This document shows, piece after piece, positions 58,560 through 64,000 of a DNA stretch of 64,000 nt. The notes under the pieces are model-generated. The model saw only the letters and a program-made list of their open reading frames with translations, did not search any database and was not told the origin of the DNA. The position numbers and the translations under genes were made by a program. The DNA is from Enteractinococcus helveticum (GTDB lineage Bacteria > Actinomycetota > Actinomycetes > Actinomycetales > Micrococcaceae), in contig NZ_LXEY01000017.1 of NCBI RefSeq assembly GCF_001657475.1, positions 62,001 to 126,000 on the forward strand. The letters are read 5' to 3'. Position 1 is the stretch's first letter, and the number at the start of each line of letters is the position of its first letter.

Positions 58560-61500
58560 ATGGCACGGTTCTCAGTTCTCGGTTGGCCCGTTTTTCGTCA
58601 GGCCAAGTCAAAGGACAAATTAGGGCGCGGTCCGGCGGTTGAATCGCCAAAATATGCAAATATGCGCCCTCGCACGGAAGACGCCGATAAAGTAGTTCAG
58701 AGCGTCTGTCCGTACTGTGCCGTCGGCTGTGGACAACGCATCTACGTCAAAGATGACGAAGTCATCCACATTGAAGGCGACCCAGATTCACCGATTTCGC
58801 GCGGTCGGTTGTGCCCGAAGGGTGCTGCGTCTGAGCAGCTCGTGAATACTCCATCCCGGCAGAAGACCGTCCTGTACCGTCGTCCCTACGGTACAGATTG
58901 GGAAGAACTCGATTTAGAGACCGCGATGGAGATGATTACGGATCGGTTTTTAGAAGCACGCCGCAATCATTGGGAAGATTTTGATGAACATGGTTCGCCC
59001 GTCAATCGCACCATGGGGATCGCATCCCTGGGCGGTGCGACCATTGATAATGAAGAGAACTACCTGATCAAAAAACTGTTTTCTGCTGCCGGTGCTGTGC
59101 AGATCGAAAACCAGGCTCGCATATGACACTCCTCCACAGTTCCTAGTTTAGGAGCTTCCTTTGGGCGTGGCGGTGCCACCCAGCCATTGCAAGATATGGC
59201 GAATGCAGACCTGGTATGGATTCAGGGTTCAAATATGGCCGAAGCACATCCCGTTGGGTTCCAGTGGGTTGCCGAAGCCAAGGCTCGTGGCGCCAAACTC
59301 GTCCACGTTGACCCGCGCTTCACCAGAACTTCCGCGATGGCAGATAAGCACGTCCACATTCGGGCGGGTACTGATATTGCGCTGCTTGGTGGGCTGATCC
59401 GCTACATGATCGAAAACGATCTGTGGTTCAAGGAATATGTCACCCACTACTCCAACGCCGCCCATTTGGTCGACGAAGGATTCAAAGACACCGAAGATCT
59501 CGAAGGTCTGTTCTCCGGGTTCGATAAGGACACCGGCGGGTACGACAAGTCGACCTGGCAATACGAAAAAGACCCATATGAGGCCGATGGTATTGCCAAG
59601 GACATGACATTGCAGCACCCGCGCTCGGTCTTCCAGATCCTGCGTCGTCACTACTCGCGCTACACCCCTGAGATGGTTAGCGACATCACCGGGATCAAGA
59701 CGGAAGACTTCCTGGAAATAGCCGATTTATTTGCCAAGAACTCTGGCCGCGAGCGCACCACCGTCATGGCGTATGCACTGGGCTGGACCCAGCACTCGAT
59801 GGGCTCGCAGTTCATTCGCACCTCCGCGATCCTGCAGCTGCTGATGGGCAATATGGGTCGACCAGGTGGCGGCATTATGGCGCTGCGTGGTCACGCGACC
59901 ATTCAGGGTTCCTCGGATATTCCAACCCTGTTCAACCTGCTGCCCGGTTATCTGCCATTCCCGGTTGCTGGCAAGCACGACACCCTGCGAGACTATCTCG
60001 ACGACTCCGTACCAAAGCATCAAAAGGGCTTCTGGTCCAACGGAGACGCCTATATGGTCTCGCTGCTCAAGGCATGGTTTGGCGACGACGCGACCGAAGA
60101 AAACGACTTCGGATATAAATACATGCCACGCCTAACCGGTGCCCACGGCACGTATCAAACGTTGATGCGCATGTTCGACAAGGGTGTCGATGGCTACTTC
60201 GTGCTGGGACAGAACCCCGCGGTGGGTTCGGCCAACGGGCGCATGCAACGGTTGGGCATGTCGAATCTGAAATGGATGGTCGTTCGCGACTTCCAGCTCA
60301 TAGAGACGGCCACCTGGTGGAAAGACGGCCCCGAGATTGCCACCGGTGAGCTCAAGACTGAGGACATTGCCACCGAGGTCTTCTTCATGCCTGCGGCCAA
60401 CCACACCGAAAAAGCTGGAACGTTTACTCAAACCCAACGACTGGTGCAGTGGCGTCATCAAGCCATTACCCCACCGGGTGATGCTCGTTCGGAGCTGGAA
60501 TTCTTCTACGATCTCGGGGTGCGGCTCAAAGAGAAGCTTAAAGACTCGACCGACCCACGAGATAAACCATTACAGGCCATGACTTGGGATTACCCGGTCG
60601 ATGAGCACGGTGAGCCATCCGCAGAGGCCGTGTTGAAAGAGATCAACGGCTACTACACGACCGGTCCGAATGCCGGCAAGCCGGTGGATAACTTCAACCA
60701 GTACAAGGCCGACGGTTCGACCGCGGGTGGCTGTTGGATTTACGCGGGCGTCTACGCCGGCGGGATCAACCATGCGGCCAACCGGGTACCTGGTAAAGAT
60801 CAGGATGAGATGGCGCATCAGTGGGCATGGGCCTGGCCGGCGAACCGTCGCATCCTATACAACCGTGCTTCGGCTGACCTAGATGGTAACCCCTGGTCGG
60901 AACGCAAGAAGCTGGTGTGGTGGGATGAAGACCAAGAGGTCTGGACCGGTCGAGACATACCGGACTTCCCGGTCAATCGTCCGCCATCAACCAAAACCGC
61001 CCATGACACCTACGGTCCTGATGCACTGGCCGGTGATGATCCGTTCATCATGCAGTCTGACGGTAAGGGCTGGTTGTTCACACCGAAGGGTATGAACGAT
61101 GGCCCGATGCCAACACACTTCGAACCGGCGGAATCACCGGTGGAGAACCCGCTGTACCCGCAGCAAGAATCACCATCGAGAGTGTTGATCACCGCCAAGG
61201 GCAACCAAACGGCACCATCTGCCGGAGAACCCGGGTCCGAAGTGTTCCCACATATCTTCACGACCTACCGTCTCACCGAGCACCAGACGGCCGGCGGGAT
61301 GAGCCGCTTCCTGCCCTACTTGTCTGAGCTGCAACCCGAAATGTTCGTTGAGGTCTCCGAAGAGCTCGCCGCCGACGTCGGGCTGGAACCCTATGGTTGG
61401 GCAACGATTGCGTCACCGCGCGGTGCGATCGAGGCCAAGGTGTTGGTCACCCAACGCATGAAACCGGTGGTTGCCGGTGGCAAGACCGTCCACCAGATCG

Positions 61501-61808
61501 GGATGCCATTTCACTTCGGGGTCGGCAACCAAGCTTTGGTCACCGGTGATGGTGTCAACGATCTGCTGGGTATGACGCTGGATCCCAACGTGTACATCCA
61601 ATCGGGCAAGGCGGTGGCTTGTACGATCATGCCGGGACGACGTCCACGCGGACCAGCCCTGGTCAAATTCGTGGAAGATCTGCGAGAACAGGCAGGCATT
61701 ACCCCACTGACCGGACATCGACGGGTGACGTATGAACGCGACCCTGAGACCATGGAAGTATCCGATCCACCAAGACTGACCGAACCCGAGCCTCACACAG
61801 GAGAATAG
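58560..61808 (+). CDS. fdhA: Formate dehydrogenase catalytic subunit with selenocysteine (TGA at 59124-59126)
   Basis: A molybdopterin oxidoreductase of 1,082 residues if the in-frame TGA is read as selenocysteine. The 4Fe-4S motif CPYCAVGCG (Cys 50, 53, 57) with LCPKG Cys 85 opens the domain. At residue 189 the frame reads NQARI-TGA-HSSTVPSLGASFGRGGAT, the position of Sec140 in E. coli FdhF and of the FdnG Sec (NQARV-Sec-H). The same frame continues to 61808 with normal domain order: MNDG-type molybdopterin segments, then the C-terminal cap. A SECIS-like hairpin follows the codon. There is no twin-arginine signal, so the enzyme is probably cytoplasmic. It oxidises formate to CO2. Confidence 0.9.
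59139..59157 (+). promoter_or_regulatory. Bacterial SECIS-like hairpin after the UGA codon
   Basis: AGTTCCTA (59139-59146) pairs fully with TAGGAGCT (59150-59157; one G-T pair) around a GTT loop, starting 12 bases after the TGA. Distance, stem length and a G-U pair in the apical loop fit the bacterial SECIS rule used by SelB. It lies within the coding sequence, as in E. coli fdhF. Confidence 0.7.
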
Positions 61809-61809
61809 C

Positions 61810-62862
61810 GTGGTTGATTTCCTCGAGCGCCCCGGCGAGCTGATTGACGCCTACGGTCAAGACACCGAGCGCAAAGCCTTCTTCACCGATACCTCGATTT
61901 GTATCGGGTGTAAAGCCTGTGAGGTGGCGTGTAAAGAATGGAACCAGGTCCCAATGAAAGGGGATCTGGAAATACTCGGATCCTCCTATGACAACACGGG
62001 TGGACTGGGTGCCAACACTTGGCGTCATGTGGCGTTCATCGAACAGGGCCAAGAGCAAATCGAAAAAGCCCGCGAATCCGGGGCAAAACTCGTCGGGCTC
62101 GGGATGCCGGCGTTTGGCGCTCCAGAAACCCGAGAACCCAATACCACCGAGGACCTTGGTATGCCCGAATTTGGGTCGCCCGGCGTTCGGATCAAGAATA
62201 AGGTCGATAACCCACCAAATCCTGACACCCCAGAATTTCGTTGGCTCATGAGTTCTGATGTGTGCAAACACTGTACATATGCGGGCTGTTTGGACGTGTG
62301 CCCAACCGGTGCACTCTATCGCACAGAATTCGGCACGGTGGTCGTCCAGGATGATATTTGCAATGGGTGCGGAACCTGTGTCGCTGGATGTCCTTTCGGG
62401 GTGATTGAGCGCCGTGATTCCGGGACCATTCACACCAAGCCTGACCGCGTTGACTCTCGATATGCGATGGACGTCAAAAACGAAGGCACAGCCAATAAGT
62501 GCACCATGTGCTTTGACCGTCTGGTCGATGGCCAAACCCCTGCCTGTGCACAAACCTGCCCGACGACGTCCATCAAATATGGCAGTCGCGAAGAAATGGT
62601 CGACACCGCGCAGAAACGCGTGACCGCCATGCACGAAAAAGGTCTCACCGAAGCCCGCCTCTACGGGGCAAATCCCAACGACGGGGTGGGCGGTATTGGC
62701 TCGGTATTCCTGTTGCTAGACGAACCTGAAGTCTACGGTCTGCCACCGGACCCACGGGTACCCACCAAGGATTTGCCGTCCATGTATAAAAAGGTTGGTA
62801 TCGCTGCCGCCGGTATGTTAGCGGCCGCGGCGACCGCATTTTTAGGAGCCCGCAAGAAGTGA
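61810..62862 (+). CDS. Formate dehydrogenase iron-sulfur subunit
   Basis: A 350-residue electron-transfer subunit with four 4Fe-4S clusters. The cysteine motifs are CIGCKACEVACKEW (31-41), CKHCTYAGCLDVCPTGALY, CNGCGTCVAGCPFGVI and CTMCFDRLVDGQTPACAQTCP. This is the FdnH/FdhB pattern. A hydrophobic tail (GIAAAGMLAAAATAFLGA) anchors it to the membrane through one helix. GTG is the start, with AGGAG upstream. It overlaps the NrfD-like gene by four bases (GTGA). It passes electrons from the catalytic subunit to the membrane subunit. Confidence 0.93.
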   Translation: MVDFLERPGELIDAYGQDTERKAFFTDTSICIGCKACEVACKEWNQVPMKGDLEILGSSYDNTGGLGANTWRHVAFIEQGQEQIEKARESGAKLVGLGMPAFGAPETREPNTTEDLGMPEFGSPGVRIKNKVDNPPNPDTPEFRWLMSSDVCKHCTYAGCLDVCPTGALYRTEFGTVVVQDDICNGCGTCVAGCPFGVIERRDSGTIHTKPDRVDSRYAMDVKNEGTANKCTMCFDRLVDGQTPACAQTCPTTSIKYGSREEMVDTAQKRVTAMHEKGLTEARLYGANPNDGVGGIGSVFLLLDEPEVYGLPPDPRVPTKDLPSMYKKVGIAAAGMLAAAATAFLGARKK

Positions 62863-63956
62863 CCCTGTCTGACTTTGATGCCTACCGACCAGAAAACGAG
62901 CCGCGTCGGAAAAAACGCCGCACTCGTCCACCCGGCCAACGTCGTGGTGGCGGTGCCGGCGATGGTTCCCGCGAAATGCCAATGGTCGAAGACGTCGAGT
63001 TCGCAGATTCCTACTACGGTCGACCCATCGTCAAACCACCACCATGGGATGACAAAATTTCTGCCTACCTCTTCTTGGGAGGTATCGCTGGTGGGTCAGC
63101 AATGCTGGCAATCGGAGCCGATCGTATTGGCTTCGACAAACTACGCAGAAACACCCGGCTGACCGCGCTCGGGGCAACGATTGCCGGGACCGGATTTCTC
63201 GTCGCTGACCTTGGTCGTCCCGAACGTTTCCATCACATGATGCGCACGTTCAAGCCGGCATCCCCAATGAACATGGGCACCTGGATTCTCAGTGCCTTTG
63301 GAGTTGGCGCTGGAGTCGTGGCAGCCATTGATGTCGACCGGATGACAGGCCAAAAGATACCGTTGGGCGTGCTCCGGCCGATTGTCTATGCGTTCGAAAA
63401 ACCTGCCGGTCTATTGGCGGCATTGATGGGAGCACCCCTGGCTTCCTACACGGGCGCCTTACTAGCCGACACGTCCGTACCAACCTGGAACGGTGGAAAA
63501 GACAACCTGTCATATCTCTTTGTATCATCCGCCGCGATGGCATCCTCTGGTGTGGCGCTGTTGACGACTCCAACTTCGGAAACCCGACCGGCCCGAGTCT
63601 TTGCAACCCTAGGCGCCGCCTCGGAACTGTACTTCTCGGAAAAACTCACCGCGGACATGCACCCCGTGGAAGCCGAACCGCTGCAAACTGGACGCCCAGC
63701 ACGCAAACTGCGCTGGGCGCAGGCGCTCACGATCGCAGGGGGCGTTGGTGCCGCACTATTAGGTCGCAACCGGATTGCTGCAATGGCCTCAGGTGCAGCG
63801 CTTGCATCGGCATCATATCTGACCCGTTCGGCCATCCTAGAAGCCGGGATCAACTCGACCAAGGATCCGCGCCATGTAGTTGAGCCGCAGCGCGACCGGC
63901 TTGCGGCCCGTCGCGCTCAGGGCATTGTCGACGATTCCATTACGACGGTCGGCTAG
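62859..63956 (+). CDS. NrfD/PsrC-family membrane subunit of formate dehydrogenase
   Basis: A 365-residue membrane protein. A charged, Arg-rich N-terminus (about 1-55) is followed by hydrophobic helices with GGIAGGSAMLAIGAD, GTGFLVADLGRPERFHHMMRTFKPASPMNMGTW (the NrfD signature with its conserved Arg/His and PMNMG) and ALMGAPLASYTGALLADTSVP. This family delivers electrons to quinones without haem. It ends 44 bases before the window edge. With the two upstream genes it makes a quinone-linked formate dehydrogenase; the final partners, such as fdhD and selA/selB, are not seen here. Confidence 0.9.
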   Translation: MTLSDFDAYRPENEPRRKKRRTRPPGQRRGGGAGDGSREMPMVEDVEFADSYYGRPIVKPPPWDDKISAYLFLGGIAGGSAMLAIGADRIGFDKLRRNTRLTALGATIAGTGFLVADLGRPERFHHMMRTFKPASPMNMGTWILSAFGVGAGVVAAIDVDRMTGQKIPLGVLRPIVYAFEKPAGLLAALMGAPLASYTGALLADTSVPTWNGGKDNLSYLFVSSAAMASSGVALLTTPTSETRPARVFATLGAASELYFSEKLTADMHPVEAEPLQTGRPARKLRWAQALTIAGGVGAALLGRNRIAAMASGAALASASYLTRSAILEAGINSTKDPRHVVEPQRDRLAARRAQGIVDDSITTVG

Positions 63957-64000
63957 CGTACTTCGACTACCCCTGCACGCTGAGTGGTATAGCCGACCAC

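Follow-up and report, generated by a model that had tools for sequence, protein, structure and literature searches.

Gene content of the locus

The window analysed here is a stretch of 64,000 nucleotides (contig C17, positions 62001-126000) from an assembly that comprises 117 contigs and totals 3,669,209 bases. Its far end carries the genes fdhA, fdhB and fdhC, followed by the beginning of a block of genes for selenocysteine (Sec) synthesis and insertion that continues on the same contig. The features are listed below, in window positions unless the contig is named.

58560..61808, + strand: fdhA, alpha (catalytic) subunit of formate dehydrogenase, 1082 residues including Sec189
59124..59126, + strand: in-frame TGA, putative Sec codon (TGA kept in relatives, best 80 of 515)
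59138..59156, + strand: SECIS-type bacterial hairpin, 8-bp stem and GUU loop (from comparison of 72 distinct sequences)
61810..62862, + strand: fdhB, beta (iron-sulfur) subunit (Pfam Fer4-type families)
62859..63956, + strand: fdhC, NrfD-type membrane subunit (Pfam PF03916 NrfD, E 1.4e-22)
63953..64000, - strand: 3' end of selD, the remaining ~1 kb lying beyond the window; past selD, the + strand carries selC, selA and selB
C17:126022-126924, - strand: selD (TIGR00476, 370.3 bits, over the cut-off)
C17:127045-127136, + strand: selC, tRNA-Sec (72.4 bits, over the cut-off; ARAGORN agrees, anticodon TCA)
C17:127192-128463, + strand: selA (410.9 bits, over the cut-off)
C17:128502-130265, + strand: selB (299.3 bits, over the cut-off)

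With its TGA translated as Cys for profile scoring, FdhA exceeds the cut-offs of both NCBIfam NF041513 formate_DH_Act (1808.7 bits, cut-off 1400) and TIGR01553 (959.7 bits, cut-off 814.2). The computed mass of FdhA is 120.3 kDa. The top NCBIfam match of FdhB is TIGR01582 FDH-beta, at 160.2 bits and thus under the cut-off of 334.7.

The earlier note, made from the window alone, had predicted that selA, selB, selC and selD would be present in the genome. All four were found, on the fdhA contig and in one block that starts at the window end, adjoining fdhABC. SelB and tRNA-Sec, the absence of which would have counted against the note's reading, are thus both present. Near its N-terminal start, SelD has the motif GGGCACK, the Cys of which presumably occupies the position where other SelD proteins can have Sec.

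Among named genomes, the closest match is Enteractinococcus coprophilus DSM 24083, a member of the order Micrococcales, in agreement with the earlier description of the genome as Micrococcales-like. Its fdhA is 95% identical, with TGA at the same codon, and its sel genes follow the same order (selD-selC-selA-selB); no notable difference was seen between the two. The listed values for the assembly are 98.96% completeness and 6.11% contamination, but this identity and the shared sel order speak against a contaminant origin of the contig.

The in-frame TGA of fdhA

The fdhA reading frame runs from an ATG at 58560 to a stop codon that ends at 61808, and its sole interruption is the TGA at 59124-59126, in the context ENQARI-TGA-HSSTVPSLGASFGRG. 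There are 188 codons 5' of the TGA and 893 residues 3' of it, two fewer than the 895 given previously. FdhA aligns with the homologous alpha subunit of E. coli Fdh-N (PDB 1kqf) at E 1.3e-212, and the residue derived from the TGA lies opposite the X of NQARVXH, which we take to be Sec196. In three more homologues (L129, L130 and L131) the same position is Cys. The TGA therefore falls at a redox-active position occupied by Sec or Cys in homologues, as had been proposed from the window sequence.

A standard stop codon sitting in frame could also be a nonsense mutation or a sequencing error, which would make fdhA a pseudogene, and the hairpin that follows it is not significant when taken alone. 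Against this, the remaining frame is intact and sel genes adjoin fdhABC. A scan of named genomes confirmed 515 relatives, of which the best 80 were kept (they are therefore the nearest relatives and no random draw), and TGA occupies the Sec site in 80 of these 80. Among eight other genomes of the same genus, the seven that cover the codon all have TGA there, the eighth being truncated. We rejected both mutation and sequencing error because of this conservation across genera, and we give them a negligible probability. The UGA of fdhA is very probably read as selenocysteine, and the interpretation given in the earlier note is thus supported. A naive annotation would cut the gene at its TGA, whereas fdhA is best described as a single selenoprotein gene.

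The hairpin downstream of the TGA

The stem starts 12 bases 3' of the TGA and consists of AGTTCCTA (59138-59145), a GTT loop (59146-59148) and TAGGAGCT (59149-59156). The earlier description of a fully paired 8-base stem with a GTT loop at this distance was accurate, with the qualification that one of the eight pairs is G-U. Structure prediction gives this stem-loop as the minimum free energy fold. Taken alone, however, it is weak evidence. Among dinucleotide shuffles, 40 of 200 fold equally well or better (z -0.80), and an 8-bp hairpin is similarly placed after 42 of 1734 other fdhABC codons. When synonymous codons were drawn by fdhABC usage, the exact 8-pair register was reached in 48 of 20000 recodings, any 8-pair hairpin in 2054 of 20000, and equal or greater stability in 1422 of 5000. 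On its own, the earlier argument from the hairpin is thus weaker than it had been taken to be.

Comparison of relatives supports the view that the hairpin is more than chance. We aligned 72 distinct 42-base sequences drawn from 110 TGA entries, in which some genomes are present repeatedly. The stem has eight pairs in 60 of the 72 and seven in the other 12, and the loop starts with GT in every one of these Sec sequences (GTT or GTC). Overall, 97.9% of stem cells pair, against 23.1 to 67.4% in slid registers. Changes on both sides of a pair were found in 20 cells, compared with a mean of 2.6 in shuffled alignments, and neither this count nor the covariation score was matched by any of 500 shuffles. 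Of the five covariation measures, two are unremarkable: the number of pairs changed on both sides (3, matched by 24 of 500 shuffles) and the number of further pair types (8, matched by 222 of 500). Sliding the register by -1 gives 21 double-change cells, yet only 67.4% of the cells then pair. Eleven of the 20 double changes replace G-C by A-U in the outermost pair, three concern the fourth pair, and six replace C-G by U-A in the seventh; these last six belong to the window genome and five more of the same genus, and may therefore represent a single inherited change.

For codons 5-10 after Sec, identity of codons encoding the same residue averages 0.868, against a gene median of 0.546, and ranks 4 of 1010 six-codon windows (uncorrected for codon degeneracy); the highest window lies elsewhere, at residue 829. 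Of the eight stem pairs, the Cys homologues L129, L130 and L131 retain 7, 6 and 2, so that the protein sequence itself accounts for some of the pairing. Their folds (-12.2, -13.8 and -7.6 kcal/mol; the 42-base stretch of the window has -9.9) are stable as well, and stability is therefore not discriminating. What discriminates is the fuller pairing and the GT of the loop, which is present in none of the three (GGC, GGC and GCC).

Distribution of the Sec genes

Among the best 80 of the 515 named relatives, tRNA-Sec lies inside the locus in 65, and selA, selB, selD and tRNA-Sec are all inside it in 60. In the remaining 15 loci, tRNA-Sec was not found in the stretch around fdhA to which the search was limited; three of these stretches end at most 4.5 kb from the TGA and 12 end ~10.6 kb past it. 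The tRNA-Sec gene, downstream of fdhA in the window genome, is upstream and on the opposite strand in 13 loci, all from Mycobacterium or Mycolicibacterium (L099, L107, L110-L114, L116-L119, L126 and L128).

We also surveyed 396 genomes sampled from the order, which are mutually related and so not independent, with thresholds of E 1e-40 for an FdhA match and E <= 1e-9 for tRNA-Sec, and counted a TGA anywhere inside the FdhA match. An FdhA fragment was matched in 126 genomes and tRNA-Sec in 132. The FdhA match contains a TGA in 124 genomes, and all 124 have tRNA-Sec; no genome of the 396 combines a TGA-containing match with a lack of tRNA-Sec at this threshold. The other two (G109 and G229) have a stop-free match with Cys at the site, and neither has tRNA-Sec at E <= 1e-9. 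Neither an FdhA match nor tRNA-Sec was found in 262 genomes, and 264 are without both a TGA-containing match and tRNA-Sec.

These counts bear on the possibility that the UGA is read through with an amino acid other than Sec. Such readthrough is conceivable at the protein level, but it sits poorly with the presence of tRNA-Sec in 124 of 124 genomes with a TGA and 0 of 2 with a stop-free fdhA, with the full sel set beside fdhA and with the conserved hairpin, and we consider it very improbable.

Eight genomes have tRNA-Sec and no FdhA match (G064, G069, G162, G180, G216, G299, G305 and G341). None of the eight reaches the cut-off in a TIGR01553 search and three give no match; the weak match of G216 (76 bits) contains a TGA. 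These genomes may encode other Sec proteins, or they may be incomplete. A SECIS model built from our alignment was run on 10 genomes, including six of these eight (all but G180 and G299), with 150 candidates scored per genome; it would overlook SECIS elements built differently, so a second selenoprotein may exist. Strong hits were obtained only at Sec-type fdhA genes, in G000 (63.1 bits, a member of the model) and G026 (68.6 bits). The next-best hit scored 20.4 bits, and the next-best within G000 18.9.

G026 carries two FdhA paralogues, a Sec copy (L035, on its contig C1) and a Cys copy (L129, on its contig C8). The Cys copy keeps all but one of the eight stem pairs in register, with a GGC loop.

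A probable selenocysteine-containing formate dehydrogenase

Direct observations are the gene with its TGA codon, the conservation of the hairpin and, next to fdhABC, the full set of sel genes. Together with the profile and structure matches, they make it almost certain that fdhABC is the operon of a Sec-containing, metal-dependent formate dehydrogenase in an Enteractinococcus-like actinobacterium. Homology and established knowledge suggest the following course for Sec incorporation, metal binding, catalysis and electron transfer. SelD would provide selenophosphate, and SelA would convert Ser-tRNA-Sec to Sec-tRNA-Sec. SelB would then deliver Sec-tRNA-Sec to ribosomes at the UGA (59124-59126), with the hairpin (59138-59156) as its guide. 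In the FdhA active site, Sec would be a ligand of Mo or W, and electrons from formate would presumably reach FdhC, the NrfD-type membrane subunit, by way of FdhB.

Membrane side of the complex

E. coli Fdh-N is exported by the Tat pathway, and an exported complex of this type has a Tat signal on its alpha subunit. A regular-expression search found no twin arginine among residues 1-50 of the window FdhA (58560-58709). The strict Tat pattern was likewise found in none of 79 relatives from the set L049-L128 (one, L050, is truncated in this region), and an RR pair near the N-terminus in 10 of the 79. FdhA resembles the alpha subunit of Fdh-N and has an NrfD-type partner, yet has no twin arginine; the membrane subunit, too, differs in being NrfD-type, unlike that of E. 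coli Fdh-N. The missing signal bears on the side of the membrane where the actinobacterial Sec formate dehydrogenases work. We see roughly even chances that they are membrane complexes with an NrfD-type anchor and a cytoplasmic active site, on the side opposite to that of Fdh-N.

Relation to known systems

Among actinobacterial selenoprotein loci, this one is standard and belongs to a known kind. The kind is not novel because Sec formate dehydrogenases and the Sec trait are in print for related actinobacteria. According to the available excerpt of PMC2830990, Corynebacterium aurimucosum ATCC 700975, a member of another genus, has an fdnG gene with an internal UGA that is clustered with selABD and selC; the likeness, by description, lies in an actinobacterial formate dehydrogenase with an internal UGA and clustered Sec genes. 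Sec formate dehydrogenase gene clusters are likewise described for Actinomycetospora, in which the removal of formic acid is selenium-dependent (excerpt of PMC7176365). FDH1 of Actinomycetospora chiangmaiensis DSM 45062 is, by the description in the same excerpt, also membrane-bound and Sec-containing; its subunits have 1078, 362 and 366 residues, against 1082, 350 and 365 in the window, and SelA and SelB are listed alongside it, SelD being absent from that particular listing. FDH alpha is described as the selenoprotein family found in the largest number of organisms, and the recipients of the Sec trait as including two Arthrobacter strains (excerpt of PMC5029168). Enteractinococcus and Yaniella are not named among the literature matches listed on selenocysteine and formate dehydrogenase, and we do not claim that they are absent from print. 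The window thus adds an Enteractinococcus-like genome with a complete, clustered Sec system and leaves the understanding of selenocysteine decoding unchanged. Within the order, too, the finding is an ordinary one, with a TGA-containing FdhA match in 124 of the 396 sampled genomes.
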